NCBI GenBank assembly: GCA_028641055.1
Contig: CM054062.1
Location: 26,532,808-26,596,807 of the forward strand
Length of the DNA stretch: 64,000 nt
Reading direction: 5' to 3'
Source of the DNA: Alopecurus myosuroides
Lineage: Eukaryota > Streptophyta > Magnoliopsida > Poales > Poaceae
The number at the start of each line of letters is the position of its first letter. The first letter of the stretch is position 1. The position numbers and the translations under genes are program-made. Of this stretch, positions 899 to 43,252 are shown piece by piece. The notes beneath the pieces are model-generated. The model searched no databases and had not been told where the DNA came from. It saw only the letters and a list, made by a program, of their open reading frames with translations.

Positions 899-1442
899 TG
901 TCGGATATATACCAACTAGGGGTATATCAGATGGTAGTATAAAGTGTCGGATTACCAGGGTGGCCTAAATGGTAATGGGCTATGGTCCGTTAGGCGGCCC
1001 AGTAAGCTGATGCACAGAAGCCGGATTCTAGAAGAACCCGGATCACGGCCCACGTGATCTGGCTTGGAGTAGAAGGCGGATTCCTTACTTTCCAAGTTAA
1101 AGAGTTACCGTAGTCTTCTAGGTTTCCTACTCTGTATGCCCTAATCCGGCTATTATATAAAGCCGGACGGGAGATATGATAGATAGACAAGAAGCTAAAG
1201 GCTAACTCGTCGAGAGGTTGATCCTTGACGAGCAGCCAATAGAACCTCACATTGTACTCTGTATTTCCAGGCTTTAGACCTGAATAGTGAGATTGCAGGA
1301 GTAGGAACGTCGCATTACTGCGCCGTACCGAACCTGGGTAAAAACCCTGTGTCATTGTCCTTCGCACAACCACGTCCCCCCACGTCTCTATCGGTAGTCT
1401 CATGGCACCCCCGTCCATGAAATCTACCACGATGTCTCGACA
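899..1442 (+). repeat. T1 5' LTR
   Basis: This 544-bp LTR begins TGTCGG and ends CGACA, and it is nearly identical to the copy at 22100-22643. It contains a TATA box at 1154-1160 and an in-frame ATG at 1402 in its 3' part. That ATG opens a frame running through the primer-binding site into gag. The left flank GGTGG is the target-site duplication. Confidence 0.96.
1154..1160 (+). promoter_or_regulatory. T1 LTR TATA box inside a short palindrome
   Basis: TATATAA lies between CCGGCT (1147-1152) and AGCCGG (1162-1167), so the core promoter can form a 6-bp stem. The same arrangement occurs in T2's LTRs, where the plus strand reads CCGGCTTTATATAATAGCCGG. Transcription should begin about 25-35 bp downstream, before the ATG at 1402. 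Assignment as the Pol II core promoter is by position and motif only. Confidence 0.65.
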
Positions 1443-2296
1443 GTTGGCGCCCACCGTGGGGCCAGCGACGTCAGGCGTTAAGTTTCGATCTGGGATACTC
1501 GGCGGGATCGGCAGTTCACTGTCGGAAGCTTGGAGTTCGACAACGACGTTGGACGCTTCCTCGACAACGGATCTTACATACCGGCGCAAAATCATCTGGT
1601 AAGTGCTTGCGTATTACCGATTGGATCTGCAAATATCTTTATCGGATTAACCGCAGAGGCCATGGGGTTTTGCGGTGGAAGTAAATTTATCCCACCCGCC
1701 CTATACCCAGTCGAAGATGACTACGATACCGGGTTCTGCTCAGTTCGCCGACATACAAGTGAATCACACTTTATCGGCATGGTGCAATCCGAGATCACCG
1801 AAAACACGGATGAAAGTAATCCCGTGGAAGAGGCAGAAAACAACACTCCCACAACAGAGGTGGAAGATCCGACATCCGTCAACATCACGACGCACTCGGA
1901 AGCTGACTCTGTACTAGCCGCCATTGAGGTGAGATTAGAGTCGGAAACCGGATCGGAGCACTTCGACACGGAAGACGAAGATGAAGACGCTTTCGAAAGA
2001 AAGGTCAAATCCTTCCAAGAGGGATTCCATGAAGTACTGATGGCAAAACCGGCTGAAAACACGGATGCCGACAGTCAGGAAAGCCCTAGAACTCCTCCGC
2101 CAGAGGAAGAGAGAGAAGAAGGAGAAACCTCTCCAAAATTCCCCGATGTCAAAGAATTGACAGAGGAAGAACCAATCAAAAAACCTCCCTCTTCCAAGAA
2201 AAAGCACAAGGCCGCTAAAAAGCTCCAGTACAAACTCCGGAAGAAGAAATTGGCAGTCCAGCCGATGAAAGCCCGGAAGTAGGAGGCGCAAGCGGA
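1402..2296 (+). pseudogene. T1 gag, N-terminal part, cut by the CACTA insertion
   Basis: This is the N-terminal part of a Tat-type gag polyprotein. The frame from the ATG at 1402, inside the LTR, reads through the PBS (RQLAPTVGP) to about 1510. There T1 lacks 4 nt relative to T2 and shifts frame. The rest (1530-2282) matches T2's gag: FLDNGSYIPAQNHLVSACVL, then a long acidic Glu/Asp/Ser-rich linker and a basic KKKHKAAKK stretch. A second frameshift lies just before the CACTA insertion, where the duplicated trinucleotide GGA occurs. Gag resumes at 11937. Homology is judged against T2's intact frame in the same window. Confidence 0.88.
1445..1462 (+). other. T1 primer-binding site
   Basis: TGGCGCCCACCGTGGGGC starts 2 nt after the LTR end. 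It resembles the complement of a plant tRNA 3' end, probably a tRNA-Lys; I am assigning this from memory and the tRNA is uncertain. The same 18-mer follows the 5' LTRs of T2 and T3. It is also translated in frame as LAPTVG within the gag reading frame. Confidence 0.85.
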
Positions 2297-8334: not shown

Positions 8335-8336
8335 CG

Positions 8337-9094: not shown

Positions 9095-9265
9095 TTTAGA
9101 AAATCTTAGCACAGGCGCATCATCAAGAAAATGCGCCTGGGGTAATCTTTTTCACAGGCGCTTTTGGTAGGACATGCGCCTGGGGTAATGCCATGTGGGA
9201 CCGCGCAAACCAAAATCCTACGAAATTTAGCGCAGGCGCATTATCTAGGTAACGCGCCTGCGGTG
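9095..9265. repeat. Internal CACTA subterminal-like array
   Basis: Several copies of GCGCCTGGGGTAAT and its inverse (such as CACAGGCGC) lie just after the transposase, far from either end of the element. This could be the original right subterminal region of the autonomous ancestor, now separated from the terminus by about 2.4 kb of acquired DNA. Confidence 0.7.
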
Positions 9266-9478
9266 CCGCAGGCCTTTAGGACCGGTTTGTATCACAAACC
9301 GGTCCTAAAGGCCTGCGGCCATTTGCTGCGGGTAGGTAGGGGGCCCAGGGGACAGATCCTTTAGAACCGGTTGGTACCACAAACCGGTCCTAAAGGCCAT
9401 GAGGCCATTTGCGGCAGGGTGTGGGGCCTAGTGGACAGATCCTTTTCGAACCGGTTTGTATTAGAAACCGGTGCCAAT
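9262..9478. repeat. Three AACCGGTT hairpin repeats
   Basis: The first is a near-perfect inverted repeat: CCGCAGGCCTTTAGGACCGG, a short spacer, and its complement ending GGCCTGCGG (9262-9318). Two weaker copies follow at about 9360-9398 and 9443-9475, each with AACCGGTTTGTA-like arms. Such ACCGGTT hairpins are common subterminal repeats of another grass CACTA/MITE group, so a second transposon's end was probably inserted or captured here. Confidence 0.7.
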
Positions 9479-11475: not shown

Positions 11476-11679
11476 TAGCATGGTTCTTTTCGAGACTATG
11501 TAATTTTGTTAAACTATGTGTTGATGATCGAGACTATGTGTTGATGATCGAAAATATTTATGTTATAAAACTTAATTGTGTCATTTTGCTGTTATTCTGT
11601 CAGCTTGATACTTATTCTGTTATTTTCCTGTAATTCTGTTATTTTGGTTTTTCTTTTATTTTTTGATACAGCAAAACCA

Positions 11680-11920
11680 TACCCCAGGCGAACAGTACAC
11701 AGTACCCCAGACGCATCTGTACCCCAGGCGCACAGCGCTTGTTCGCCACAGGTAAGAGTTTTACCCCAGGCGCACAGGGTGTATTCGCCAGGGGTATGCG
11801 AACTTACCACAGGCGCATTGTGTTATTCGCCTGGGGTAAGCCATTACCGCTGGCGATGTGGTCCCAGGCGAACTGAAATTCGCCTGTGGTAGCCTAATTT
11901 GGTGCGCCTGCGGTAGCCTT
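11680..11920. repeat. CACTA right subterminal repeat array
   Basis: Roughly a dozen copies in both orientations of ACCCCAGGCGAA / TTCGCCTGGGGTA mirror the left end. They run up to the terminal CTAGTAGTG at 11925-11933. Confidence 0.85.
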
Positions 11921-11936
11921 TTCCCTAGTAGTGGGA

Positions 11937-14726: not shown

Positions 14727-16143
14727 GAAAGCGAGCTCATCAGGTTCCTCCGTGAGAACTGGGATATTTTTGCTTGGTGTCCAGCGGAGATGCCAGGCGT
14801 ACCCAGGGAAATTGCTGAGCATCAACTCAAGGTGATTCCAGGATCGAAACCCGTCAAACAAGGTCTCCGTCGATTTGACGGAAGAAGACGGAAGGCTATT
14901 GGCAAGGAGATTATCCGGCTTTTGGCAGCAGATTTTATCCGGGAAGTTATACATACTGAATGGTCTGCGAATCCAGTATTAGTCCCGAAGAAATATACCA
15001 CTGCCCTTAGAATGTGTATAGATTACACCGGCCTGAACAAACTATGTCCAAAAGATAGGTTTGCGTTACCGCGAATCGATCAAATAATAGATGCCACTGT
15101 AGGCTCTGAGCTTTTGTGCTTTTTGGATGCATATTCCGGGTATCATCAAATACGCATGAACAAGGAGGATCAAATCAAAACCTCGTTCATAACCCCTTAT
15201 GGGAGGTACTATTACATAACCATGCCATTTGGCCTGAAGAACGCAGGTGCAACGTACCAGCGTTGCATGCAACGGTGTTTGCATAGTCAGATTGGCAAAA
15301 ATGTCCATGTTTACGTGGACGACATTGCTGTCGTTACCAAGGAAAAAGAAACACTCCTTGAGGATTTGCGAGAAACCTTCGAAAATTTGCGCACTTATAA
15401 AATGAAGTTAAATCCATTAAAGTGCGTATTCGGGGTTCCCTCAGGAAAACTTCTGGGTTTTATCGTTTCTCACAGAGGAATAGAAGTAAACCCGGAAAAG
15501 ATCAAAGCAATCTTAAACATCTCCAAGCCTACGTGCGTAAAAGATGTGCAAATATTGACGGGTTCCGCTGCAGCCGTCAGCAGGTTTATTAGCCGGCTGG
15601 GGGATAAAGCCTTGCCATTATACAAATTGTTGAAGAAATCCGACAAATTTGAGTAGACAGAGGAAGCAGATGCAGCGCTAACCCAGTTGAAGGAAACTTT
15701 GATGAAAGCTCCGATTTTGGCATCCCAAAAGACGAAGAACCTATGTTATTGTACCTTACGGCTACAAATCGGGTTATTAGTGCAGTAATTATTGTGGAAA
15801 GGAAGAAAGACGAACAAAGCATACCAGACCAGCATCCGATATATTACATAAGTGAAGTTTTCTCCGAGTCCAAACAAAGGTATCCACACTATCCAAAACT
15901 GGCATATGGCGTATTTTTCGCATCTCGGAAACATCGTCATTACTTCCAAGGATATTCCATAACAGTGGTATGTAAAGCACCGCTAGGGGATATAATAAAC
16001 AACGCGGAAGCAACTGGCCAAGCAGCCAAATGGGGCATCAAGCTAGCAGCATTCGACATTAAGTACCAACCCAGGACGGCAATAAAATCCCAGGTTCTGG
16101 CAGATTTTGTCGCCGACTGGACGGAAGTAATGGAAAAAAACAC
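14727..16143 (+). pseudogene. T1 reverse transcriptase and gypsy-type RNase H
   Basis: RT is in the same frame as gag-PR, separated only by the TAG at 14724. Landmarks: ENWDIFAWCPAEMPGVPREI, a fingers/palm region with FALPRIDQIIDA and CFLDAYSGYHQI, and the catalytic YVDD (HVYVDDIAVVTK) near 15310. A TAG at 15654 and a frameshift near 15735 break the link to RNase H, which continues in another frame: YLTATNRVISAVII, HPIYYISE, and ADFVADWTE near 16115. A run of A7 near 16135 shifts the frame back. RT copies the genomic RNA in particles and RNase H removes the RNA strand. Here both are decayed. Confidence 0.93.
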
Positions 16144-16145
16144 CG

Positions 16146-17681
16146 ATGCCGGAGTCCGAGTACTGGATCATGCACTTTGACGGATTCAAGATTAAGGAGG
16201 GCGCTGGAGCTGGTGTAGTCCTAAAATCCCCTAAAGGAGATACAATGGAGTATGTATTACAAATACACTTCAACGCCAGTAATAACGTGGCAGAATACGA
16301 AGCTCTGCTTCACGGCTTGCATATCACAAAGGAAATAGGTGTCAAGCGCATCCTATGCTATGGCGACTCAGATTTGGTACAACACCAGCTCAACCAAACT
16401 TGGGACGCCAAAAGCCCTATAATGGCCGAATACCGGAGAACGGTTGACGAATTTACCATATGTTTCTTCGGATTCGAAGTACTCCATGTTAAAAGGGAGG
16501 AAAATTGGAACGCGGATGAATTAGCCCGCATGGGATCAGAAAGAGTAAAAATCCTACCTCCAGGTGTATTTGTCCAACATTTGTACGAACCATCGATAAA
16601 AGGTGGATATGTTGATTATCCTTTGGCTTCCGAGTCAATTGAAGTCATGCTCGTTAACCCGGATTGGACAATCCCATATTTAAACTTCTTAGTTGATCAG
16701 AAGTACCCGGATGGAGCAGACGAAGTCTTGCAAAGACAGATTCAGCGTCGATGCAAAGGATACACGGTAATTAATAATTGCCTGTATAAACGCAGCACTA
16801 CCGGAATTTTTCTGCGATGTATTTCACCAGAGGAAGGACGAGAAATCCTGCAAGAAATCCATGCCGGAGATTGCGGACATCATGCTCAATCAAAAAGCAT
16901 AGTCAAAAAAGCATTCCGCGCCGGGTTTTTCAGGCTAACAGCCAAGACAGATGCTGAGCACATAGTAAACACATGTGCAGGGTGTCAATATTACGCCAAG
17001 CAGACAAATATGCCGGCCCAAACACTCAAAACTATCCCCATTACATGGCCGTTTGCGGTCTGGGGGCTAGATATGATGGGACCATTCAAAACTGCCAGAG
17101 GCGGACTTACGCATCTACTCGTTGCAGTGGATAAATATACCAAGTGGGTGGAGGCCAAACCCATCAAAAAGCTTGACGGTGTGACTGCCAGAAATTTCAT
17201 CATTGACGTAGTCATGAGATACGGCGTTCCACACAGCATAATAACCGACAACGGGACAAATTTCTCTATTGGAGAGTTGGCAAAATATTGCCGACAAACG
17301 GGAATTCGCCTAGATCTTGCATCTGTGGCACACCCGCAATCCAATGGTCAGGTTGAAAGAATGAATAGCTCAATCTTACAAGGAATACGCCCAAGACTTG
17401 AATCTCCTCTTCATAGAGCAGCTGGAGCATGGGTAGAAGAGTTACCTTCCGTGCTTTGGAGTATCCGAACAACACCAAATAAGTCAACTGGGCAAACCCC
17501 GTTTTTCCTAGTTTATGGTGCGGAAGCAATTCTCCCAACGGACATGCTCCATGACAGCCCAAGAGTGCAGGATTTCGATGAATCAGATGTCGAAAATGCA
17601 CGAAAGGATGTCGTCGATCTCTTAGAAGAAGAACGAGAATTTGTGCTTCAAAGATCCGCCATCTATCAGCAAGGTTTATGA
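16146..17681 (+). pseudogene. T1 archaeal-type RNase H (aRNH) and integrase
   Basis: The 512-codon frame begins with a second RNase H of the archaeal type, the hallmark of Tat elements. The four acidic positions are visible in MHFDGFKIKEGAG, NNVAEYEALLHGL, YGDSDLVQHQL and NWNADELARMGS. Integrase follows: an HHCC zinc finger (CGHHAQSKSIVKKAF with later CAGCQYYA), then the catalytic D,D,E core in WGLDMMGPFKT, IITDNGTNF and SNGQVERMN. The frame ends at a TGA replacing an Arg codon (17679-17681). The whole segment has been deleted from T2. Confidence 0.93.
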
Positions 17682-17960
17682 CGTTATCATAGTCGGAAAA
17701 TCAGGCATCGTTCTTTTAAACAAGGTGACCTAGTGCTAAGATTGGTGCAGCAAAGAAAGCACAAACTAGCCCCAGTATGGGAAGGACCATTTGTCATCAG
17801 TAAAGCCATGAAGAATGGATCATATTATCTTGTAGACATTCGCGATACGGAAGATGATCCCGAGAAGCCGAATCGCAAAAGAAAGAGAAAGATAGATGAT
17901 GAACTAGGAGAGACAAAGAGGCCCTGGAGTATCCAGCAGTTACGTCCCTTCTATACTTAG
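17682..17960 (+). pseudogene. T1 integrase C-terminus (GPY/F-type module)
   Basis: Same frame as the integrase core beyond one nonsense codon. It has FKQGDLVLRLVQQRKHKLAP, WEGPFVISKA and YYLVD, the GPY/F module that contacts DNA in gypsy integrases, then a basic linker RKRKRKIDDE. The last codons (RPFYT, stop TAG at 17958) are also present at the end of T2's truncated RT frame, which fixes the right edge of T2's deletion. Confidence 0.88.
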
Positions 17961-18590: not shown

Positions 18591-21567
18591 TCAAGCATCC
18601 GAGTCTTCCTCGCTGCTGTCATCCTCGGGGGCTTCTGGAATTTCTTCTTCCGGATAGGTGATGGAGATGTTCACCATAGAGGCGATCTTGGTGGCGTGAC
18701 CCTTGATCTCATCAAAGATGGTGGTCCGCTGGGTCTCCGTATATCCAACAGGGATACCGGACGCCACACGCCAAGATTTGGCACTGGGATAATGCATACG
18801 CATAAAGCCTAACGCCATGCGTGCACCACCCTGTGCTGCGGAGCGCAAGGTGGATTCCTTGGATTCCGCCACCTCCAGGATAGCTTCCGGAAGTTTCTCA
18901 ACTTCCGAGAACTCCCTAGTTCTTGCGGGATGGTACTTGTTGACCAGCTGCATGCCTGCAGCTCGGATCGTAGTGAACACCTTCCCGAAAGCTCGGATTT
19001 TCTCAATCCGAGTAAGATCTGGGTCATCTCCTGTTTTTTCAAGACAAAATAACCAAAGAGTTAGCGGAAAAGCAGAGAAAAAAGTTAAGACATGGAAAAT
19101 CCGGTAAAAGTTGATAACTTACCGAGAATCTTATCCATCTCGGATCCTTCCTCCAGACGCAGGTTCAAGGCGTTCTCCAAATCTTGGATAGTGGCCTTGT
19201 CTTTGTCCGCTTGTTGGGAGGCCTTGGATTGAGCAATTCCAAGAGCCATATTGCTGGCCTCCAGATCTTTTTGAGCCTTCATAAGTTCCTTATGAAGGTC
19301 CAAGTTCTCCCGGCGGAGATTCTCGGCATTGCCGGCATCTTCAGCTATTTGCTTGGCTTTAGCCAAGGCAGCTGAAAAGCAAGGAAAAAATTCTAGGTTA
19401 AGAAAACTCGGAAAAAAGTACTTAGAAAAAATTATGGACAAGGAACTACAGAGAACTAAAAGTATACCTGTTGTTTCCTTCAGCGCCAGTTGAGATGATG
19501 CCAGCTCCGTTTCCTTAACTTCAAGAATAGAGAGAAGGCTTCTAACCTCCTTATTCTTGACAGTTAGCTTGTTGAAAACTTCCATGTTTATGGTTTCAGC
19601 GGTTTGCTGAAATAAGGAAACGAACCAGAACGCTTAAGTTAGAAACAAGCATGATAAAGATAAAAAGCATTAAGTGAAAATCATACATTCGACTTATTGC
19701 TTGGGGGCTAGAGATAATACCTGGCTCATCCGCTGTAAACCTGCCAAGTTTTCAGTGAACTCTTTTGCGTAGTCGGCAAAAAGAGTCCCAACTGTGCTAA
19801 GGCCCTCGTTGATATCTTTGAATTACTTATAAAAGGTGGGAATCTCCTCCTCAGTTATCCGAGAAGGACCTCCCACCTAAGAGACCGCCCTTTCCCTCGT
19901 GTCCGTTTCCGGCACAATGGGCTGGCTGGTCTGCTGGGACTCGGTGTTGGGGGCTGCAGCATGCTCTTCTGTTGCTGCGATTGGTGTATCTGGAGCGGTA
20001 GCAGGAGAAGGGTGTGGGCCTCTGCTGGCCACAGCCTTGTGCCTCTTCAGCTCTTTCGGCTTCAGAGTAGAAGGAGGCAGGCTAAAAAGGAGAAAAAGCC
20101 GGAAAGTTAAACTCCGAGGTAAAGGAAGAAAATCCCGACAAAGTAGAATAACCCAGATGTTCAAACCTGGAGGTGACGACGGGGACCCTGTCAAGATCAA
20201 TGACTTCCTGGGAAGCGGAAATCTTCTTGCGCTTACGTCCGCCAGCGAAGGCGGCGCGCAATGCTTCCAGATCGGCATCAGAAGCAAGTTCCGACTCAGG
20301 AAGTTCGGCAATCTGTCAAGAAGGCAAAAAATGAGTTGAAAGCATGAAAACCGAGTAAACGACAAGGATTTAAACCCAAAGGGCGAAAAATGTACCTTGG
20401 GAGCCGGATTCGTGGCCGTATACATTGGCCGGCTTTCTTCGTATTGGTCGCGGGATGCGACCAATTGATTTGCGCGTTTCCGCAAATACTTTGCCGACCA
20501 AACCTTGTCGGTTGTCCGCATAGCATCGCCATCTCTCGAGTATTCGCAGAGGAGGCGAGCGCCATGATTCGCCAAAGGCTGAATCCTCCTTTCTAACCAG
20601 CAAAGGACTGTGTCCATGCCGGTTAGAGGCGGATCAGAAGCGACGAGCTTTGCGATGCGCCGCTTGATCCGGAGGAGATCCGGCGGCAGGGTTTGAACTG
20701 CTTCAGTTCCCCAATTTTCTTGGGGAACAACGGCGGTGTTCGAGAAAGGTGGAACCCCGGTGGTTTTCCCAGGAAAGGGAACGTCGGGATGATAAAAGAA
20801 GGAACCCGTCCAAAATTTGACGGATTCTGACGTTTTTATCTTGGGGTACCATTCTTCCCTAAACCTCCTAAGAGTGAAAGAAATGGTCCCACAGATGGGA
20901 AGAACACCCTCAGTGGGGTTACGCTTCACTCCAAAGCAGTATTGCCAAAAATCTAGTCTTGGGGCTATTCCTAAATACCCTTCGAAAAGGGCTTGGAAGC
21001 CGGCTAGATAAAGAATGGAATTTGGGGGAAGGTTGTGAGGCTGGACACCGTAGTGGTGGAGAACTTCTAAGAAAAGGCGGAAGGCGGCAAACCCATACCT
21101 CTCGCCATATGAGAGGTAAGGAGGACGCGTTATCCGTCTTTTGGCATGGGCTCGGTCTCGTCCTCCGGGAGCCGCCACTTCCCCTTCAGCACGAGCCCCT
21201 CCTTCTCCATTGTCGGAAGGAGGGATGGCGGAATACTGCTGGCACTCCAGTTGCCGGCAGTTTCCGCCTCTTCTTCGGCTCCGGCGGCGGCGGACGCAGC
21301 GGCCTCCGCGGCCGCGAGCTCGTCTCCGACGAGCGTGATTTTCTCCTCCACCGTCTCGGGCGCGAACGGTGGGGAAGGCGCGGAGGAAGATCCCGCAAGA
21401 TCCGCGGAGGCGAGAGGGATTTCCTCGCCCTCCGCACCGCCTGCGGCCTTCACCGGCCCGTTGCCGGAGACATGCACTGGGGAATCCAGTTGCGGGTCCA
21501 TTGTGTCGATTATTTCATCTATGTCCTTAGCGACGGTGCGGGCCGGGGAAGATGACGGAGATGCCAT
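18591..21567 (-). pseudogene. T1 antisense gene: putative gypsy-type transposon / coiled-coil protein, six exons
   Basis: Minus-strand exons by GT/AG sites: 21567-20396, 20312-20167, 20081-19721, 19606-19468, 19371-19123 and 19030-18591. Exons 2-6 have the same lengths as in T2, which helped fix the sites. Exon 1 begins MASPSSSPAR after a CTATAAATAG box and encodes an Ala-rich start, then the PF04195-like core (GFQALFEGYLGI, KIKTSESVKFWTGSFFYHP, LCWLERRIQPLANHGARL). Exons 4 and 5 look coiled-coil. Exon 6 has SAKSWRVASGIPVGY and an acidic tail. This copy is broken: a stop near 21130, a frameshift near 21085, and stops near 19877 and 19825. The function of this protein is not known to me. Confidence 0.85.
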
Positions 21568-21700: not shown

Positions 21701-21710
21701 CTATTTATAG
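21701..21710 (-). promoter_or_regulatory. TATA box of the T1 antisense gene
   Basis: The minus strand reads CTATAAATAG, about 140 bp upstream of the ATG at 21567. The identical decamer precedes T2's antisense gene by about the same distance, supporting a dedicated internal promoter rather than read-through from the LTR. Confidence 0.7.
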
Positions 21711-22099
21711 CCGGAATCTCGTCACGATGCGTGCCAACGGCTCTTTTGACCGTTGGATGATCAACGCGTGTCACTCGCCGGAAATTCCGGGAAATGAAAC
21801 GACGGGTGATTATTGCTATCGCCTCGTTTCCCGAGAGAATGTGTCAGAGATATGTTTCTGGGTTTCCCACCTGTAACCCAAACGTCCCTTACGTCAGCAA
21901 GGTTAAAGCGCTGACGTAGGAAGTTCCTTCTCCGCGAAGATTCGTGGAAGAAAAGCCGAATTTTCTGGATTCCGAGTTTTGCGTTGTAACATCCTTTGAG
22001 GAGAAAAAGAAGAATCAAGACTGCAGGCCGATATTTCCTGGAAGATATGCATTCGGCGAAAGACGGCGAATCCGAGTCTTAATCCTTCTTGGGGGCTAC
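21711..22099. other. T1 region between antisense promoter and 3' LTR, with polypurine tract
   Basis: No supported ORF. It holds the upstream region of the antisense gene (GC-rich, with CGCGTGTCACTCGCC and related motifs near 21765) and ends in CTTGGGGGCTAC (22088-22099). That is the polypurine primer for plus-strand DNA synthesis, the same as in T3 and mirrored in T2. Confidence 0.8.
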
Positions 22100-22643
22100 T
22101 GTCGGATATATACCAACTAGGGGTATATCAGATGGTAGTCTAAAGTGCCGGATTACCAGGGTGGCCTAAATGGTAATGGGCTATGGTCCGTTAGGCGGCC
22201 CAGTAAGCTGATGCACAGAAGCCAGATTCTAGAAGAACCCGGATCACGGCCCACGTGATCTGGTTTGGAGTAGAAGGCGGATTCCTTACTTTCCAAGTTA
22301 AAGAGTTACCGTAGTCTTCTAGGTTTCCTACTCTGTATGCCCTAATCCGGCTATTATATAAAGCCGGACGGGAGATATGATAGATAGACAAGAAGCTAAA
22401 GGCTAACTCGCCGAGAGGTTGATCCTTGACGAGCAGCCAATAGAACCTCACACTGTCCTCTTTATTTCCAGGCTTTAGACCTGAATAGTGAGATTGCAGG
22501 AGTAGGAACGTTGCATTACTGCGTCGTACCGAACCTGGGTAAAAACCCTGTGTCATTGTCCTTCGCACAACCACGTCCCCCCACGTCTCTATCGGTAGTC
22601 CCATGGCACCCCCGTCTATGAAATCTACCACGATGTCTCGACA
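22100..22643 (+). repeat. T1 3' LTR
   Basis: 544 bp, matching 899-1442 with 12 substitutions by eye, followed directly by the target duplication GGTGG (22644-22648). Confidence 0.96.
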
Positions 22644-22648
22644 GGTGG

Positions 22649-33370: not shown

Positions 33371-33942
33371 TGTCGAGACATCGTAGTAGTTTTCATAGAC
33401 TGGGGTGCCATGAGACTACGGTAGAGACGTGGGGTAACGGGATAGCGTAGTAACACAGAACACGGGATTTACCCAGGTTCGGTACGTCGCGACAGTACGG
33501 CGTACCTACTCCTGCACTTCTCACTATGTGGGACTAAAGCCCGTATAATAAGGTTACAATGTAAGAGAATAGATCCAGCTACTCGTCGAGGATGAACTTC
33601 CCGGCGAGTTGCGTAAGGCTTGAGCTTGAACCTAGAACCTTGGAACTAAAGGAACTTATGAAATCTATCTCCCGTCCGGCTTTATATAATAGCCGGATTA
33701 GGCTTACAGAACCAGAAACCTAGAAGACTACGTTTTACTTGTAACTTGGAAAGTAAGGAATCCGTCTTCTCCTCCAAGCCAGATCACGCGGGCCGTGATC
33801 CGGGTTCTTCTAGAATCCGGCTTCTGCGCGTCGAACTACTGGGCCGCCCAATGGACCTAAGCCCATTACCATGTAGGCCACCCTGGTAGTCCGGCTCTTT
33901 TGTCTACCATCTTCTATACCCCTATTCAGTATATATCCGACA
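33371..33942 (-). repeat. T2 3' LTR
   Basis: 572 bp. On the plus strand it starts TGTCGAGACATCG and ends ATATCCGACA. The adjacent GTAGCCCCCAGG (33943-33954) is the complement of the polypurine tract. Confidence 0.96.
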
Positions 33943-34334
33943 GTAGCCCCCAGGAAGGATCAAAACTCTGAAACTCCGCCTTTCGTCAAATACATTTTGT
34001 CCGGGAAAACTTGATTCAGCAGTCTTGATTCTTTCTTCTTTCCTTTTGAAGGAGATGGTAACATAAAACTCGGAACTATGAAAATCCGGCTTTTCTTCTC
34101 GCGCTCCTTCGCGGAAAAGGAACTCGTGACATCAGCGCCTCAATCACGCTGACGCAAGCGCCGCTTGGTTTCACGCGGGAAACCCTGCAACGTATCTCTG
34201 ACAGATTCTCACGAGAAACGAGGAGATAGCCATCATTCCTCTGTCGTTCCGTTTCCCGGATTTTCCGGCGAGCGACACGCGTCGAACATCCAACGGTCAA
34301 AAGAGCCGTTGGCGCGTATCTAGAGGTTTTCAGG

Positions 34335-34344
34335 CTATAAATAG
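34335..34344 (+). promoter_or_regulatory. TATA box of the T2 antisense gene
   Basis: CTATAAATAG, 150 bp upstream of the ATG at 34485. It is identical to the box of the T1 antisense gene (21701-21710), whereas much of the surrounding upstream DNA differs. No other initiator motif is obvious. Confidence 0.72.
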
Positions 34345-34484: not shown

Positions 34485-37422
34485 ATGGCCTCTCCATCGT
34501 CCTCACCGGCTCGCGCCTCCATCGACGAGCTTTTGGGCGACCTAGATCCACAGCTGGGGTCGCCCAAGCATGCCGGCGGCGGGCCAGAAAAGACCACTGC
34601 ATCCGCGGCGGGCGGAGGAAACGCTTCCGCCGCCGCGGACGTAGCGGGCCCAAGCGCCACGACAACCCCGCCGTTCGCACCTGAAACGGCGGAGGAGAAA
34701 ATTGAGCTCCTTGGCAAGAAACTTGCCGCCGCGAAGGCCGCCGCCGCCGCCGCCGCCGGAGCAGACGAGGAAGAGGAAACTGCAGGCAACTGGAGTGCCT
34801 GCAGTATTCCCCCGGCTCTCCTTCCCAACTTGGAGAAGGAGGGCTTAGTTCTAAAAAAGAAGTGGCGGCTCCCGGAAGAGGAGACTGAACCCATGCCACA
34901 AGAGGGCGAAAGGGTGCTTCTTACCTCCCACCTTCTACGAGGTATGGGGTTGCCACCTTCCTCTTTCTTCCTCCAGGTTCTGTCACACTACAGCATCCAA
35001 CCTCATAACCTTCCTCCCAATTCTATTCTGTACATGGCCGGCTTCCAGGCCTTGTTCGAAGGTTACCTAGGAATAGAGCCTAGGTTAGATTTTTGGCTGT
35101 ATTGCTTTGGGGTGAAGCGTAACTCTTCGGAGGGCGCACTCCCAAATTGCGGGACCATTTCCTTTACTCTTTGGAGATTCCGAGAGGATTGGTTCCCCAA
35201 AATCAAAACCTCAGAATCCGTCAAATTTTGGACGGGTTCTTTTTTCTATCATCCCGACGTGCCTTTTCCTAAAAAGGCCGTCGGGGTTCCACCTTTTGTG
35301 AACTCCGCCGCCGTTCCCCAGGATAACTGGGTAACAGAGGCCGTCCAAGTTCTGCCTCCAGATCTGCTAAGGATCAAGAGGCGCATCGCCAAGCTCACCT
35401 CCTCCAAACCTCCTTTGACCGGTATGGACACGGTCTTTTGCTGGTTGGATAGGCGGATTCAGCCATTAGCAAATCACGGAGGCCGTCTCCTGTGTGAATA
35501 CACGGGAGCCAAGGATCCAATGCGGACAACCGACAAGGATTGGCCCGCAAAGGAACTTAGGCGGCGCATCAATCAGTTGGTCGCATCACGCGACCAATAC
35601 ACGGAGAGTCGGCCAATGTACACGGCCGACAACCCAGCTCCTAAGGTAAATTTTCCGTCATTTGAGTATAATCTCACTTCCTGGATAATCTACCTTTTGA
35701 CTCTGATTGGTTTTTCCGACAGCTTGTGGATCTTCCAGACTCGGAGTTAGCCTCCGAGGCCGAGCTGGATGCGCTGCGCTCCGCCGCTACGGGTGGGCGC
35801 AAACGCAAGAAGATAATTTCTTCGGATGAAATTATCGACCTTGACGGAATCCCCGTCGCCACTTCCAGGTTATTTTCTTCTGGGTTTTTTCTTTTATGGG
35901 ATCTTTTTCATCCATCTTCGGTGTTTTAACCTTTTCCGGGTTTTTGGTTTTTAGCCTACCCCCCTCCAACTTGAAGCCGAGAAAGTTGAAGAAACTCAGA
36001 GCTTCTTCCAACCGAGGCGGCCAACCATCTCCCGCCGTCGCCCCGGACACGCCGCAGATAATGGCGGAAGAGCCTACTGCAGCCACCACCACCAAGCCCC
36101 CAGAGCCCAGCCAGCCCGTTGTGTTCGAGTCGGACACGAGGGAAAGGGCGGCTCCAGAGGTGGGGAAATCTTCTCGGACCTTCGACGAGGAAATCCCCAC
36201 CTTTGACAAGGATTTTAAGGCTATAAATGACGGCTTGGACGCAGCCGGAAATCACTTCGCGGAATATGCGAAAGAATTCCAAGAAAACTTAGCAGGTTTG
36301 CAGCGCATGAGCCAGGTATGTAACTCTAGCCCCCAAGCATTAAACAAAATGCGTGCTTTTTTGCTTTGATGTTTTTTGTTAACCATACTTTTCCTTGCTG
36401 TGTTTCAGCAAACCTCCGAGGCCATAAACCTGGAAGTTTTCAGGAAGCTCACCATCATGAATAAAGAAGTTCGAAGTCTTCTTTCTATTCTTGAGGAGAA
36501 AGAGGCGGAGCTGGAATCATCTCAGCTCGCTTTGACAGAAACGAAAGGTAAGCTTTTTTCGTTTTGAAATTTCCGATTTAAGACTTTGTCTAAGTTTTTG
36601 CCCGAGGAAATTGATCAACTCGGATTTTCCCTTGCTTTTCAGCTGCCTTAGCTGAGGCTAAACAAGCAGCGGAAGATTCTGGCAACGCCGAAATTCTCCG
36701 CAATGAGAACATTGAGCTTCACAAGAATCTTGTGAAAGCTCAGCAAGACCTGGAAGCCAGCAACCTGGCTCTTGGAATGGCTAATTCCAAGGCTTCCGAA
36801 CAGGCGGAGAAAGACAAATCCACCATTCAGGATTTGACTGAAGCTCTGAACCTTCGCCTGGAGGAAGTTTCCGAGATCGACAAGCTCATCGGTAAATTTC
36901 TTACCCTTTTCCTCATCTTTCCATGTTTTGCTTTCTCTGTTTGTCTTCTTAACCCTTTTGTATGTTTTATTGGATCAAACAGGAGACACCCCAGATGGCA
37001 CTCGGGCTGCAGGCATCCGAGCTTTCGGGGAGACATGGAATTTGGTGAAGGCTGCTGCAACGCAGTTAGTAGGCAAGTTTCTTCCCGATAAATCTGGGGA
37101 ATGCTCGGAGGTTGAAAAGCTTCCGGGTATCATCATGGAGGTGGCGGAGTCCAAGGAGTCTATTCTCCGCTCCGCTGCACGGGGTGGTGCGCGCATGGCC
37201 TTAGGCCTTATGCGCATGCACTATCCTAGTGCCAAATCCTGGCGTGTGGCCACCGGTGTCCCTCAGGGATACACGGATGCGCAACGATCCACCATTTTTG
37301 GTGAAGTTAAGGGCCACGCCACCCAGATTGCCGCCATGGTAAATGTCGCCGTCAACTATCCAGAAGAGGAAGCTCCTCCAATCCCCGATGAAGAAAGTAG
37401 CGAGGAGGAGTCGGATTCTTGA
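34485..37422 (+). CDS. T2 antisense gene: intact putative gypsy-type transposon / coiled-coil protein, six exons
   Basis: Exons 34485-35645, 35723-35868, 35955-36315, 36409-36547, 36643-36891 and 36983-37422 total 2496 nt, an 831-residue protein in one continuous phase. Every intron (77-95 bp) begins GT and ends AG. Exon 1 gives an Ser/Ala-rich start, NWSACSIPPALLP, then the PF04195-like core with YMAGFQALFEGYLGI, VKFWTGSFFYHPDVPFP and FCWLDRRIQPLANHGGRL. Exon 2 carries a basic GGRKRKK, a possible nuclear signal. Exons 4-5 are Glu/Leu-rich and probably coiled coil. Exon 6 has SAKSWRVATGVPQGY and an acidic C-terminus EESSEEESDS. Because it is antisense to the genomic RNA, its introns would not be spliced out during retrotransposition. 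Its molecular role is unknown to me. Confidence 0.88.
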
Positions 37423-38032: not shown

Positions 38033-39013
38033 CTAAGTACAGAAGGGGACATAACTTGCTAGACGTTCCCAGGCTTCCGCAATCCACTTGACCTTGTCGA
38101 ACTTCTCCAGCAATTTGTGAAATGGTAAGGTTTTAGCCCCCAGCCAACTAAGAAATCTTTTTATGGCTGTGGCGGAACCCGGCAATTCTGGGACATCTTT
38201 TTCACACGTAAGTTCTGAGATGTTCGAGATTGCCTTAATCTTTTCCGGGTTAACTTCTATTCCTCTATGAGAAACGATGAAACCCAGAAGTTTTCCTGAG
38301 GGAACCCCGAATACGCACTTAGATGGATTCAACTTCATCTTGTAAGTGCGCAAGTTCTCGAAAGTTTCTCGCAAATCCTCAAGGAGTGTATCTTTTTCCT
38401 TGGTTACGACAGCAATATCGTCCACGTAAACATGGACGTTTCTGCCAATCTGACTATGCAAACAACGTTGCATGCAACGCTGGTAGGTTGCACCTGCGTT
38501 CTTCAGGCCAAAAGGCATGGTTACATAGTAATACGTCCCGTACGGGGTTATAAAAGAAGTCTTGATTTGATCTTCCTTTTTCATGCGTATTTGGTGGTAC
38601 CCGGAGTATGCATCCAAAAAGCATAAAAGCTCGGAGCCTGCAGTGGCATCTATTATTTGGTCGATTCGCGGCAGTGCGAACCTATCTTTCGGACATAACT
38701 TGTTCAATCCTGTGTAATCTATACACATTCTGAGGGCAGTTGTGTCTTTCTTCGGTACTAATACCGGATTTGCGGACCAATCAGTATAGATTACTTCCTT
38801 GATAAAATCCGCTGCTAAAAGCCGGATAATTTCCTTGCCAATAGCCTTCCGTCTTCTTCCGTCAAATCGACGGAGACCTTGTTTGACGGGTTTTGATCCG
38901 GGAATAACCTTGAGTTGGTGCTCAGCAAGTTCCCTGGGTACGCCTGGCATGTCAGCTGGACACCTGGAAAAAATATCCCAGTTCTCACGGAGGAACTTGA
39001 TGAGCTCGCCTTC
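38033..39013 (-). CDS. T2 reverse transcriptase, truncated, downstream of an in-frame TAG
   Basis: An open frame follows directly after the gag-PR TAG in the same phase; the first internal ATG is at 38950. It keeps MPGVPRELAEHQL, CFLDAYSGYHQIRMKKEDQ, FGLKNAGATYQRCMQ and the catalytic YVDD (HVYVDDIAVVTKEKDT). Near 38075 it leaves the RT sequence and joins, in frame, the last codons of pol (VPFCT, stop), equivalent to T1's RPFYT. About 2.25 kb (T1 15,670-17,920) is therefore missing: the RT connection region, RNase H, aRNH and integrase. RT palm chemistry may be intact, but the element cannot integrate by itself. Confidence 0.9.
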   Translation of the reverse strand, partial: EGELIKFLRENWDIFSRCPADMPGVPRELAEHQLKVIPGSKPVKQGLRRFDGRRRKAIGKEIIRLLAADFIKEVIYTDWSANPVLVPKKDTTALRMCIDYTGLNKLCPKDRFALPRIDQIIDATAGSELLCFLDAYSGYHQIRMKKEDQIKTSFITPYGTYYYVTMPFGLKNAGATYQRCMQRCLHSQIGRNVHVYVDDIAVVTKEKDTLLEDLRETFENLRTYKMKLNPSKCVFGVPSGKLLGFIVSHRGIEVNPEKIKAISNISELTCEKDVPELPGSATAIKRFLSWLGAKTLPFHKLLEKFDKVKWIAEAWERLASYVPFCT

Positions 39014-42000
39014 CTATTTGTCGGTCATCCCAGTCCCTACAACGACGAATTTTGTCGGATCTTTGGGATCTAGGATTACCTGTCTTGTATTCTCGGATGC
39101 CTTGAAGCTATCTGTTGGCTTCCGAGTTTCTTTTCCTGCCGGCATTTCTTTCGGCGATACCTCCTTGGCTAACTCCTTCAGTTCTTCCTGAGCTATAACT
39201 CTTTGAGCGCAAAGGGCGTTTTGCTTCTCCAACTCGTTTGCCAGCTTGAAATCACCGGCAATGGTGATTACTCCTCCTTTGGGTCCTGGCATCTTCAGCT
39301 TGTTGTAGATATAGCAAGATCTTGCCATAAACTTGGCGAAAGCCGGACGTCCGAGTATTGCGTGATACACGCTCTCGAACGGCACAACTTCGAAGGATAC
39401 TTTTTCCTGCCGGAAGTGATCTTTATCTCCGAAGGTGACATCTAGGGAAATTTCTCCTAGGGATCGTGCTTGCCTGCCAGGAACGATGCCATGGAAGCGT
39501 ATATTGCTGTAATTGAGCTGGGACTCGGATATCTTCAAGTGCTTCAGTGTATCCAGGTACATTATATTGATGCTGGATCCTCCGTCCATCAGCACTCTTC
39601 TTAGCCTAGTGTTTTGAACAATAGGGCTTACAACAAGAGCTTGTGTGCCGGGTTCAGGGATATTTCCGGGATGATCTGACTGATCCCAGATTATCGGTGT
39701 GTTGGAGTACTTCAAGAATTTTGGGGTTGCAGGAACAACCGCGTTTATTTCTCGAAGTGTCCTTTTGGCCACCTTTGCTGACGGGGTTGCTAGGAAAGTT
39801 AACATTGCTTCTCCGTCAACTCTCGGAAATTTGGGTTCGCCTTTTCGCTGCTGTTCCTGGATTTTGTCATCAGTGTCCGATTCACTGTCTTCTTTTTCAG
39901 CTTCTGGCTTTTGTTTGGCAGGTTTCCTTTTGGAACCCTTCCCTTTATTTCCGGATCCTGCATTGCCTTTCATATGCTTGTTTAGCCGGCATTGCGCGTT
40001 TGTGTGGGTTGGTTTCCCAAACTGAGAGTGGTGGACGCAGGGTTCCGACTTAATTCTCTCCCATTCTTCAGGAGTGTAATTGATGGGATCCGGACTGCGG
40101 CCTTTCCACTTGTTCCCTTTTTCTCCTCCAAAGGCTAAGTTAACCTCCTTGGGCTTTGTTGTTGACTCCGGAGTTCCTTTTTTATCAGAACGAGGTGTTT
40201 TCTTGGTCAGTATCAGTGACTCAATATTGCCTCCTCTTGCTCTAATATCATCTTCGGCTGCAGCATGCTCATTAGCGGTTGTAAGCATAGATCCGAGATC
40301 TTTGTGCTTTTTAGAACCAACCATGAACGGTACAAGTCCGGGTTTTAGGCCATTGACGAAAGCATGCATTGCTTGTACGTCAGTTACTCCAGAGCAACTA
40401 TTCTTCATCGCAGTCCATCTGGAGATGAAATCCACGTATGGTTCGTCTTCAAATTGGGTGCAACGGTTCAGCTGGTTGATGCTATTTGGGCGTTTGTATG
40501 TTCCCCTGAAATGCTGGGTAAATACTCTCGCCATATCATCCCAACTGTCGACAGTTCTTGATGGTAAACCATTAATCCAATCTCTGGCTCCGTCTAGCAA
40601 CATTAGGGGAAGAAACTTGACAGCTTCCAGGTCTGTCCCGTTGTTGATCTGGACGGCTGTGTAATAATCTGAAAGCCAGGTATCCGGGTTTGTACTGCCG
40701 GTATATTTTTGGTAGGTTGGACCAACTTTGGTGAAGCCAGAATGCAGGGTTATCCTTCGGATCCTGTCAGTAAAACACTTAGGACCAAAGTATAGATCAT
40801 CCTTTTCTGCTCTATCAATATGTGCAGAATATCTCCCGGCTGAATGGACAGAAGGGGATCTGCTCCTTTCTTTTCCATTGTTACGCGGACGCGTTTTTCC
40901 GAGGTTATCTCTATCTCTTCCGTTGTCACGCCCTCTGGGATTAGGTGGAGTCCTGCTCCTGTACCTTTCCTTATCTTTAGGCGGTGTCCGAGATCTTTCA
41001 CGTCTGTGAGGTGTATCGTATCTTCCAGCTTTTTCAGCTGGGTTTCTCGGAGGTGGCATTATTTTGCCGTCATTCCGGTGTTTGTCTTCCCGATCGTGTG
41101 GTTTATATCCATCTTTCGGGAGATGAGGTCCGGTTCTAGACGCTGCGTCCCGGTTGTCGGGGTTTTTCTTGTCTTTTCTCGGATCCTCTTTTTTATCCGA
41201 ATCTCCGGGTTCTTCCGGTCCAGGTGCTCCAGCAGCGCAAGTAACAGTTTTGCAGAGGGCGGAATTATCATGCAGCCTCCCTGATCGCTCTTGTCCTCGT
41301 TGTTGCTGCTGTAATGCTTTTCCTAGGAAAGCATACACCCCTTGGAGTTTTTCCCCGTTGGAGTACAGATCATTGTTCAGGATGGCGAACGCTGCTTCCG
41401 CGTTTTCTGCTGCGGTTTTGTATATTGGCTCGCCCTTGGCATCTTTGCCGTTTAACTGCTTTTGCCAAGATGGGTTATAGAACCTTTCTTTCGGCGGCAG
41501 TTCTTCCGGTTTTGCAATTCCGGGTAACCTAGTAGGTTTTAAGGCAGATCTATGCTTTCTCTCGTACTCCTCTATTTCTTCCTTCATGATTTTGATGTCA
41601 TTATGGGTTTGTTGGAGATGTTGCCGAGATCTAAGCAGATGTTGCTGTTGCCGTTGGAAAGCTTGTCTCCTGGCTTCCAGCATCTCAGGGGGTTCATTGG
41701 GTCCCACTGGAGTTTGTAATAGTTCTTGCTCTTCCAGTTCTGTCATTGGCGGAGCAGTGATTTCCTTAGATTTCTTTTCCGTAGGCTTTGTGCCACTAAT
41801 ATATCCAACTTCCAGGTTTTCATCAGCGAGATCGGCTGACTTTTTCTTCCGGAGTTTGTACTGGAGTTTTTTAGAAGCACGGTGCTTTTTCTTGGAAGAC
41901 GGAGGTTTTTTGACAGGTTCATCCTCTGTCATCTCCTTGACGTTAGGAAATATCGGAGAAGTTTCTCCGTCTTCCCTCTCTTCTGCTGGCGGAGGGGTTT

Positions 42001-42721
42001 TAGGGCTTTCCTGGCTATCGGCACCCGTTGTATTAGCTGGTTTTGCCATTAGCACTTCATGGAACCCTTCTTGAAAGGACTTAACTTTTCTTACGAAGGC
42101 CTCATCGTCTTCGTCTTCGGATTCGAAGTTATCCGATCCGGTTTCCGACTCCAATCTCGCCTCAATGGCGGCAAGCACGGACTCTGTTTCCGAGTTCATC
42201 GTCTGGTTGACGGATGTCGGATCTTCCGTCTCTGTGACGGGTATTGGTTCTTCCGTCTCTGTGACGGGTGTAATGTTGTTATCTGCCTCTTGCACGGGAT
42301 TTCCGTCATCCGTGTTTTCAGCGATCTCGGATTGCACCATGCCGATAAAGTGCGTACCACTGTTTTGTCGGCGATCTGAGCAAAATCCGGTATCATAGTC
42401 GTCTTCGACTGGGTATAGGGCGGGTGGGAAATAATTGTTTTCACCGCAAAACCCCATTGCTTCCGCGGTTAATCCGATAAAGATGTTAGCAGATCCAATC
42501 GGTAAAACGCAGGCACTTACCAGGTGGTTTTGCGCCGGTATGTAGGATCCGTTGTCGAGGAAGCGCCCGACGTCGTCGTCGAATTCCAAGCTTCCGACAG
42601 TGATCGATCTTCCAATTCCGCCTAGTATCCCAGATCGGAACTTCACGCCTGACGTCGTTTGCCCCACGGTGGGCGCCAACTGTCGAGACATCGTAGTAGT
42701 TTTCATAGACTGGGGTGCCAT
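39014..42721 (-). CDS. T2 gag-protease polyprotein (1235 codons, open)
   Basis: An uninterrupted frame from an ATG inside the 5' LTR (42721) through the PBS (RQLAPTVGQ) to a TAG at 39016-39014. Parts in order: N-terminal FLDNGSYIPAQNHLVSACVL, a long acidic linker with repeated EDPIPVTE-like units, a basic block, a Gln-rich helix (RRQAFQRQQQHLLRSR), an Arg/Ser-rich region (RERSRTPPKDKERYRSRTPP), the gag core (DTWLSDYYTAVQINNG, FTQHFRGTYKRPNS), a knuckle-like CVHHSQFGKPTHTNAQC and protease with VLMDGGSSINIMYLDTL. It forms particles and processes polyproteins. The ATG in the LTR is chosen because it lies after the TATA box and no in-frame stop intervenes. An internal Met remains possible. Confidence 0.9.
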   Translation of the reverse strand: MAPQSMKTTTMSRQLAPTVGQTTSGVKFRSGILGGIGRSITVGSLEFDDDVGRFLDNGSYIPAQNHLVSACVLPIGSANIFIGLTAEAMGFCGENNYFPPALYPVEDDYDTGFCSDRRQNSGTHFIGMVQSEIAENTDDGNPVQEADNNITPVTETEEPIPVTETEDPTSVNQTMNSETESVLAAIEARLESETGSDNFESEDEDDEAFVRKVKSFQEGFHEVLMAKPANTTGADSQESPKTPPPAEEREDGETSPIFPNVKEMTEDEPVKKPPSSKKKHRASKKLQYKLRKKKSADLADENLEVGYISGTKPTEKKSKEITAPPMTELEEQELLQTPVGPNEPPEMLEARRQAFQRQQQHLLRSRQHLQQTHNDIKIMKEEIEEYERKHRSALKPTRLPGIAKPEELPPKERFYNPSWQKQLNGKDAKGEPIYKTAAENAEAAFAILNNDLYSNGEKLQGVYAFLGKALQQQQRGQERSGRLHDNSALCKTVTCAAGAPGPEEPGDSDKKEDPRKDKKNPDNRDAASRTGPHLPKDGYKPHDREDKHRNDGKIMPPPRNPAEKAGRYDTPHRRERSRTPPKDKERYRSRTPPNPRGRDNGRDRDNLGKTRPRNNGKERSRSPSVHSAGRYSAHIDRAEKDDLYFGPKCFTDRIRRITLHSGFTKVGPTYQKYTGSTNPDTWLSDYYTAVQINNGTDLEAVKFLPLMLLDGARDWINGLPSRTVDSWDDMARVFTQHFRGTYKRPNSINQLNRCTQFEDEPYVDFISRWTAMKNSCSGVTDVQAMHAFVNGLKPGLVPFMVGSKKHKDLGSMLTTANEHAAAEDDIRARGGNIESLILTKKTPRSDKKGTPESTTKPKEVNLAFGGEKGNKWKGRSPDPINYTPEEWERIKSEPCVHHSQFGKPTHTNAQCRLNKHMKGNAGSGNKGKGSKRKPAKQKPEAEKEDSESDTDDKIQEQQRKGEPKFPRVDGEAMLTFLATPSAKVAKRTLREINAVVPATPKFLKYSNTPIIWDQSDHPGNIPEPGTQALVVSPIVQNTRLRRVLMDGGSSINIMYLDTLKHLKISESQLNYSNIRFHGIVPGRQARSLGEISLDVTFGDKDHFRQEKVSFEVVPFESVYHAILGRPAFAKFMARSCYIYNKLKMPGPKGGVITIAGDFKLANELEKQNALCAQRVIAQEELKELAKEVSPKEMPAGKETRKPTDSFKASENTRQVILDPKDPTKFVVVGTGMTDK
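42661..42678 (-). other. T2 primer-binding site
   Basis: The minus strand reads TGGCGCCCACCGTGGGGC, 2 nt inside the 5' LTR, identical to T1 and T3. Confidence 0.88.
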
Positions 42722-43252
42722 GAGACTACGGTAGAGACGTGGGGTAACGGGATAGCGTAGTAACACAGAACACGGGATTTACCCAGGTTCGGTACGTCGC
42801 GACAGTACGGCGTACCTACTCCTGCACTTCTCACTATGTGGGACTAAAGCCCGTATAATAAGGTTACAATGTAAGAGAATAGATCCAGCTACTCGTCGAG
42901 GATGAACTTCCCGGCGAGTTGCGTAAGGCTTGAGCTTGAACCTAGAACCTTGGAACTAAAGGAACTTATGAAATCTATCTCCCGTCCGGCTTTATATAAT
43001 AGCCGGATTAGGCTTACAGAACCAGAAACCTAGAAGACTACGTTTTACTTGTAACTTGGAAAGTAAGGAATCCGTCTTCTCCTCCAAGCCAGATCACGCG
43101 GGCCGTGATCCGGGTTCTTCTAGAATCCGGCTTCTGCGCGTCGGACTACTGGGCCGCCCAATGGACCTAAGCCCATTACCATGTAGGCCACCCTGGTAGT
43201 CCGGCTCTTTTGTCTACCATCTTCTATACCCCTATTCAGTATATATCCGACA
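42681..43252 (-). repeat. T2 5' LTR
   Basis: 572 bp, one difference from 33371-33942. The minus-strand TATA box TATATAA (about 42994-43000) is flanked by AGCCGG/CCGGCT as in T1. ATG codons near its 3' end (42721, 42706) are in frame with gag. Confidence 0.96.

Follow-up and report, generated by a model that had tools for sequence, protein, structure and literature searches.

The window analysed here, 64 kb of Alopecurus myosuroides (blackgrass) DNA on contig CM054062.1, contains two long terminal repeat (LTR) retrotransposons in opposite orientation, termed T1 and T2. In each, the strand opposite to gag-pol has a series of antisense open reading frames (ORFs) in the stretch from pol to the 3′ LTR; judged from their sequence, these are the exons of one spliced protein-coding gene with six exons. 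This gene, whose product bears a Transposase_28 (TRP28, PF04195) domain, is very probably a real accessory gene of Retand-type (Tat-clade) elements encoding a nuclear accessory protein, the role of which we infer below. Genes of this kind are known; what is new, as far as the literature search reaches, is a single spliced gene with its own promoter that is selected in a family devoid of RNase H and integrase. The exons, with the first T2 intron, are placed as follows.

34485..35645, plus strand: T2 exon 1, 1161 bp, beginning with ATG
35646..35722, plus strand: T2 intron 1, 77 bp, GT-AG, phase 0
35723..35868, plus strand: T2 exon 2, 146 bp
35955..36315, plus strand: T2 exon 3, 361 bp
36409..36547, plus strand: T2 exon 4, 139 bp, possibly coiled coil by a crude heptad count
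36643..36891, plus strand: T2 exon 5, 249 bp, possibly coiled coil by the same count
36983..37422, plus strand: T2 exon 6, 440 bp, with the SAKSWRVA motif, the acidic tail and TGA
20396..21567, minus strand: T1 exon 1, 1172 bp, with one frameshift and one stop
20167..20312, minus strand: T1 exon 2, 146 bp
19721..20081, minus strand: T1 exon 3, 361 bp, with two stops
19468..19606, minus strand: T1 exon 4, 139 bp
19123..19371, minus strand: T1 exon 5, 249 bp
18591..19030, minus strand: T1 exon 6, 440 bp

A previous, sequence-only reading of the window had given exons 2–6 the same lengths in both elements (146, 361, 139, 249 and 440 bp) and listed introns of 83, 85, 114, 96 and 92 bp in T1 and of 77, 86, 93, 95 and 91 bp in T2. 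Both sets are exact, the exon lengths to the base, and all ten introns are GT-AG. It had also described the T2 copy as fully open; indeed, the spliced frame encodes 831 amino acids and ends in TGA. Spliced protein-to-DNA alignment, with the T2 protein alone as input, scores 2932 on T1 against 62 on the wrong strand and places the T1 introns at T2 residues 387, 435, 556, 602 and 685, in phases 0, 2, 0, 1 and 1, respectively. The T fraction is 0.42–0.57 in introns and 0.16–0.24 in exons. The two copies share exon lengths, phases and GT-AG borders, and the frame is kept solely after splicing, as in a spliced gene.

The conservation of exon length exceeds chance, since exons 2–6 contain no insertion or deletion (indel) in 1335 bp where 24 are predicted from the intron rate (P ~3e-11), the introns having eight events in 438 aligned bases. 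Three indels fall in exon 1, of 9, 3 and 1 bp, and the 1-bp one is the T1 frameshift. Exon mismatches between T1 and T2 amount to 0.21, 0.13 and 0.44 at the first, second and third codon positions (chi-square P 3e-47), and third positions of the antisense frame carry most mismatches in all six exons, while the introns differ at 0.39 of positions with no consistent three-base pattern. The codon comparison that the sequence-only reading had proposed was run and gives a dN/dS of 0.178 (95% confidence interval 0.14–0.22) over 825 codons, six codons being excluded, which is not near 1. Exons 1 to 6 individually give 0.129, 0.201, 0.228, 0.123, 0.193 and 0.313, and the sense gag-reverse transcriptase (RT) region gives 0.108 (1038 codons).

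Selection can also be followed among copies of the T2 gene elsewhere in the genome. Thirty-nine further copies were taken from the top BLAST hits (the best 40 of 10,423 first-look candidates were scored), a sample biased to close and complete copies. Across the 40 copies, T2 included, synonymous, non-synonymous and nonsense variants number 121:163:7 when private to one copy, 45:17:1 when present in two or three copies and 67:21:0 when present in at least four (Fisher P 1.2e-8 against private). Relative to a neutral spectrum drawn from introns only (76 variants), omega is 0.56, 0.16 and 0.13 in these three classes. Because shared variants are purified and private ones much less so, the changes that survived further rounds of copying were filtered for protein sequence. 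With the dN/dS value, this filtering at non-synonymous sites bears out the earlier suggestion of purifying selection during retrotransposition: as read from these patterns of variation, the spliced protein is under purifying selection while the element replicates, within the RNase H/integrase-less family of T2. In eight T2-family copies, 850 bp of RT show 12 synonymous to 1 non-synonymous shared variants and 17:20 private ones plus one stop; the antisense gene of those copies shows 7:1 shared and 30:37 private.

All 39 further copies keep exons 2–6 to the base, and the differing exon phases that would have spoken against the gene are not seen in them. Introns are retained in every T2-gene copy read: the 195 introns of the 39 copies all have lengths within 2 bp of those of T2, six copies having a 1-bp deletion in intron 4, and all five GT-AG pairs are kept in 38 of the 39. 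Exon indels are all multiples of three and all lie in exon 1, and the spliced frame is intact in 30 copies. The spliced exon 1–exon 2 junction has no occurrence genome-wide at up to two mismatches, although the unspliced control for this search gave no result. The explanation offered earlier, that antisense orientation accounts for intron survival, fits these observations: introns would survive retrotransposition because the genomic RNA bears them as reverse complements, invisible to the spliceosome. The T1 gene has 41 matches in the genome, T1 included.

A search of other grass genomes for the six-exon structure had been put forward as a further check. Within the present genome the answer is divided: T2-family copies have all six exons, and distant TRP28 families clearly share only intron 1. 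A genome search with PF04195 gave 57,073 first-look candidates, of which the best 150 were scored, all being matches, and 30 loci were examined. The intron 1 donor could be checked in 19 of these; the other 11 were dropped, their alignment to T2 ending well short of the end of exon 1. In 15 of the 19, at 28–36% protein identity to T2, a phase-0 GT donor stands behind residue 387, preceded by an NPAP motif or a near variant of it. Two loci (L016 and L023) have the donor one codon later, and in two others (L018 and L020) the alignment ends at residues 361–362, before the donor site. Downstream of intron 1, the distant families have T-rich introns with AG ends, and from exon 2 onward they look unlike T2 by eye. 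It thus appears that the position and phase of intron 1 are common to TRP28 loci about 30% identical in protein, a feature apparently unreported, while the six-exon layout, as traced in these alignments, is exact within the T1/T2 lineage only. One locus (L035) was considered as a case of intron 1 loss and rejected: its donor is present, and part of intron 1 appears to have been deleted together with adjoining exon 2 sequence.

A second group of TRP28 genes was found in the same genome. A cluster at C1:541.67-543.68 Mb holds 13 loci in 2 Mb, L013 included, and has dispersed relatives; the other 12 cluster loci are 43–69% identical to the frame of L013, with open frames of 291–596 amino acids. 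Nine loci of this kind were compared, seven in the cluster (L010, L011, L013, L014, L015, L019 and L022) and two outside it (L009 at C1:509.3 Mb and L017 on C626). Their pairwise dN/dS is about 0.3–0.6 over the 16 pairs with more than 55% identity, and they form a group of their own, separate from the transposon-type copies (100/100, although long branches were flagged). By these measures the group looks like a host gene family, an old element being the alternative; PMC11963269 reports that a similarity to TRP28 was not seen outside transposable elements.

Upstream of the antisense gene, both elements have a putative promoter, in which a TATA box is accompanied by half-sites of the mitosis-specific activator (MSA) type.

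34287..34313, plus strand: T2 27-bp promoter block, containing MSA-type half-sites in inverted orientation (AACGG / CCGTT); 34 of 40 T2-family copies, T2 included, have it without a mismatch
34335..34344, plus strand: T2 putative antisense TATA box CTATAAATAG, with the CCGTT half-site beginning 29 bp upstream
21733..21759, minus strand: T1 27-bp promoter block, identical to that of T2
21701..21710, minus strand: T1 putative antisense TATA box, with the CCGTT half-site beginning 30 bp upstream

Within the window, the 27-mer occurs only at these two places (34287-34313 and 21733-21759) at up to three mismatches. A scan with the 11-base MSA consensus YCYAACGGYYA finds two exact matches in the 64 kb, one in each antisense promoter, within its 27-bp block. 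The TATA box sits inside the element and outside the LTR, about 390 bp from it. Among the 30 distant loci, 14 (L024-L027 and L029-L038) have the TATA box and half-sites at fixed spacing, with CCGTT at −28 to −30 in 10 of the 14 and, close to where transcription should start, AACGG at +34 to +36 in 13; these 14 are not independent cases, because they belong to few families. In two further loci (L011 and L014), a lone half-site lies elsewhere. The MSA elements that MYB3R factors bind in G2/M genes have AACGG as their core and lie mostly near the start site (PMC10905365), and the AACGG cores here likewise lie near the start site assumed from the TATA box. A literature search on MSA elements and retrotransposons returned, in titles and the starts of abstracts, no report of such half-sites at an antisense TRP28 promoter, though an earlier report is possible. 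A TATA box flanked by MSA-type half-sites at fixed spacing is a conserved and apparently unreported feature of T1, T2 and these 14 loci.

The predicted T2 protein has a computed mass of ~90 kDa and a pI of 5.1, and two features could be assigned to it.

34917..35117, plus strand: Transposase_28 (PF04195) domain, residues 145-211, hmmscan E 7.6e-17
35792..35812, plus strand: basic motif GGRKRKK in exon 2, resembling a nuclear localization signal (NLS, called by eye) and conserved in T1

Exons 4–5 encode a charged stretch, maybe a coiled coil by the crude heptad count. Protein conservation between T1 and T2 was rightly noted from the sequence, as SAKSWRVA and the acidic tail are both kept. A Pfam scan of the whole T2 protein finds no transposase catalytic domain and no plant mobile domain (PMD). 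A PDB sequence search with exon 1 gives nothing beyond noise and no solved relative, a large protein collection yields no homologue at E 1e-3 among 7,993 candidates scored, and viral and prokaryote contigs give no match to an exon 1 query.

Several observations weigh against the reading of a functional protein-coding accessory gene. The spliced frame of T1 is broken by three in-frame stops, at codons 142, 504 and 522 of the T2 frame, and by a frameshift of one base, and nine of the 39 T2-gene copies are not intact, eight having stops and one missing a splice site. Exon 6 is the least constrained exon (dN/dS 0.31). Selection does not single out the antisense gene, because RT of the eight copies compared is about equally constrained, and the rate at which the family loses the gene is not shown, because all 40 copies were found via the gene itself. 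In the distant families, introns 2–5 are not clearly co-positioned and only intron 1 is clearly common; 16 of the 30 distant loci are without the promoter box and its half-sites at set spacing, including L021 and L028 of large families. The AlphaFold model of exon 1 is unusable (mean pLDDT, the predicted local distance difference test score, 34) and that of exon 6 weak (62), and because both models are poor, DNA binding gets no support here. Splicing and G2/M timing are themselves predictions from sequence.

The accessory-gene reading nevertheless gives a coherent scheme. RNA polymerase II would transcribe the antisense gene from the internal TATA/MSA promoter, and cells in division (G2/M) are the likeliest setting. 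In the spliced product, the TRP28 domain of exon 1 would be united with the nuclear signal of exon 2, the possible coiled coil of exons 4–5 and the acidic C-terminal part that exon 6 encodes. This ~90 kDa nuclear protein may have a regulatory or accessory function, exerted on the DNA or RNA of the element or on pre-integration complexes. The earlier proposal that the spliced protein probably does something for the element is supported by the selection on it; any specific role is inferred.

As to that role, there is a reasonable, though less than even, chance that the protein aids nuclear import, integration or packaging, as retroviral accessory proteins do. Almost every recently active Retand cluster has TRP28 ORFs (PMC11963269), the protein has a basic motif and an acidic tail, and a G2/M-type promoter would match nuclear-envelope breakdown. 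No similarity to known factors of this sort is seen, however, in Pfam (whole protein) or in PDB sequences (exon 1 only). A wider proposal is more tentative: Retand elements would own a complete nuclear gene, with a MYB3R-type promoter, an intron 1 kept in deeply diverged families and a spliced multidomain protein, encoded on the strand that spares introns from loss by retrotransposition. Such a gene would set the timing of the element, or protect it, when cells divide, and would stay under selection despite the loss of RNase H and integrase from a family. Intron 1, lying between the TRP28 exon and the nuclear signal, could then switch between cytoplasmic and nuclear forms.

It is rather unlikely that the protein counteracts silencing to maintain transcription of its own copy, like VANC of VANDAL transposons, so that non-autonomous copies must retain the gene. 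VANDAL anti-silencing is mentioned in PMC11728184. The gene is selected within a family lacking RNase H and integrase, exon 2 encodes the NLS-like motif, and clusters without GAG, AP, RNase H (RH) or integrase (INT) all list TRP28 in Table 1 of PMC11963269, Camellia oleifera 1 solely in a short ORF. Yet RT is about equally constrained in the eight family copies, the retention rate is not shown by copies found through the gene, and complete relatives could also have passed on selected alleles by recombination.

The antisense transcript might instead act mainly as RNA, through a duplex, as a source of small interfering RNA or by transcriptional interference, the protein being incidental. LTR-element antisense transcripts can form double-stranded RNA, and the possibility has been raised for such genes (PMC7264820). 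A role of this kind predicts neither codon periodicity nor frame keeping, and equal constraint on introns, whereas the exons are periodic and in frame, the introns drift and shared variants are purified at non-synonymous sites, all of which makes it very improbable. Even less credible is the recent antisense capture of a host gene by one element, in which it would still evolve as a passenger: the gene has introns, as host genes do, and a TRP28-bearing host-like cluster exists in the same genome, but the gene occupies the same site in both elements and has many copies, the cluster is separate (100/100, long-branch warning) and matches the T2 protein at 28–37% over the domain, with no match for L013, and a passenger would not be purified in a replicating lineage. 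Exon conservation as a by-product of sense-strand constraint, by an ORF on the gag-pol strand or by RNA structure, can be practically dismissed, as the opposite strand has open runs of 100–182 amino acids but no frame open across exons 2–6 in T1 or T2, and mismatches peak at antisense-frame third positions in all six exons.

That Tat-lineage elements can carry extra ORFs, some of them antisense, as the sequence-only reading stated, was already known from the antisense, unspliced Transposase_28 ORF of Retand. These ORFs are found in 97% of recently active Retand clusters, with function unknown (PMC11963269, Vicient 2025), and resemble the T1/T2 gene in domain, orientation and site between pol and the 3′ LTR. 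The survey used ORF Finder and counted 104 separate antisense ORFs in clusters; in its main text "intron" is absent, and "splice" and "exon" occur only in the references (PMC11963269). What it counts as separate ORFs are, in T1 and T2, exons of one spliced gene, and the further antisense ORFs it lists, Smc-like and similar, may correspond to downstream exons. Two of its entries, Alopecurus myosuroides 2 and 3b (LTR 564 and 577, internal region 8734 bp, no RH, no INT, TRP28 present), are close to T2 (LTR 572, internal region ~8738 bp). No report of antisense TRP28 as one spliced gene was found in titles, the starts of abstracts and passages of the closest papers, although a prior report is possible.

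Other systems offer partial parallels. Maize Grande gene23 is also antisense and lies between pol and the 3′ LTR; its own promoter and nuclear protein are described in PMC7264820, and the T1/T2 counterparts are predicted from sequence. The same 2020 review urges a search for antisense and spliced LTR-element transcripts. Ogre and EVADE are plant LTR elements that use introns (PMC6317226, PMC12786077), but in Ogre the intron separates the gag-prot frame from that of RT (PMC6317226) and EVADE introns yield subgenomic RNAs (PMC12786077), whereas those of T1 and T2 are antisense, in a separate gene. Ogre, of the sister lineage, has extra ORFs with the plant-specific PMD (PMC6317226); T2 has PF04195 instead. 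HBZ of human T-cell leukaemia virus type 1 (HTLV-1) is an antisense accessory gene with a nuclear protein (PMC11963269), a likeness by kind in which homology is not expected; the HTLV antisense promoter lies within the 3′ LTR (PMC7264820), unlike the internal TATA box of T2.

The first-look PF04195 candidates in this one genome indicate that antisense TRP28 genes are numerous, with the best 150 scored. If each is one spliced gene, ORF-finder surveys cut it in pieces and its length, domains and conservation are misjudged. The spliced protein, the promoter and the comparison of private with shared variants make the function of an antisense accessory gene testable with existing RNA data. In blackgrass extrachromosomal circular DNA, PF04195 tops the shared-domain table, at 416 against 36 for PF13456, reverse transcriptase-like (PMC10606437), an abundance that fits recent activity of T2-like elements.

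The two elements that carry the gene are built as follows.

33371..33942, minus strand: T2 3′ LTR, TG...CA ends; blastn match of 573 bp to 42681-43253 with 1 mismatch
42681..43252, minus strand: T2 5′ LTR, the blastn match of the 3′ LTR
39014..42778, minus strand: T2 sense gag-containing frame (PF03732, E 1.7e-12), stop to stop, extending into the 5′ LTR
38033..39013, minus strand: T2 sense RT frame (PF00078, E 1.1e-32), with no RNase H or integrase after it
899..1447, plus strand: T1 5′ LTR, 97.6% identical to 22100-22648
22100..22648, plus strand: T1 3′ LTR, pair of the 5′ LTR
14727..17681, plus strand: T1 sense RT, RNase H, second RNase H (RVT_3) and integrase core, by Pfam domain search

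The T2 LTRs are 99.8% identical (1 mismatch in 573), and its flanks, GGTGT and GGTGC, form an imperfect 5-bp target site duplication. At a substitution rate of 1.3e-8 per site per year, the LTRs date T2 to ~0.07 million years and T1 to ~0.9 million years. In T1, RT_RNaseH lies within 15653-16180, and RVT_3 followed by rve within 16131-17681. The order RH, additional RH, INT is a mark of Ogre/Retand (PMC6317226); T1 has the additional RNase H between RH and INT, and the segment is missing from T2. Sequence comparison finds no counterpart of T1 15668-17937 in T2 37300-38300, and the T2 family is a deletion derivative in which ~2.27 kb with RNase H and integrase are gone (T1 15668-17937 against T2 38056-38073). 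The deletion junction is spanned in 39 of 40 copies of the T2 gene, T2 included; in L043 the match starts 3 bases ahead of it, and L067 was omitted from the flank and junction analysis of T2-family copies only. The T2 internal region (33943-42680, ~8738 bp), of which the final ~4.1 kb lie beyond RT, falls within the Retand survey range of 7380-12869 (PMC11963269). As in Retand, this length comes from a long stretch between pol and the 3′ LTR, and that stretch holds the antisense Transposase_28 ORF (in T2, PF04195 E 7.6e-17).

Divergence between T1 and T2 is uneven, at 0.39 in antisense introns and 0.44 at antisense third positions against 0.27 at gag-RT third positions and 0.20 in the LTRs. 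Because the antisense gene (34485-37422) has diverged more than gag-RT (38073-41197) and the LTRs, this suggests module exchange between elements, and the antisense module may have a mosaic origin.

A TAG lies at the matching site between the gag and RT frames of both elements (T2 39014-39016, minus strand; T1 14724-14726), in the context AAATAGGAA. Given this shared position, the TAG could be programmed, to be passed by readthrough or splicing, and need not reflect decay. T1 is split by an insert at ~2285-11925 that encodes a CACTA-type tnp2 transposase (Transposase_21) and contains a 68-bp tandem array (~4032-4818) and a 300-bp direct repeat at 2966/5545. Further diverged repeats (64–95% identity), at 27156-29361, 47313-48149 and 55417-58329, connect other parts of the window.

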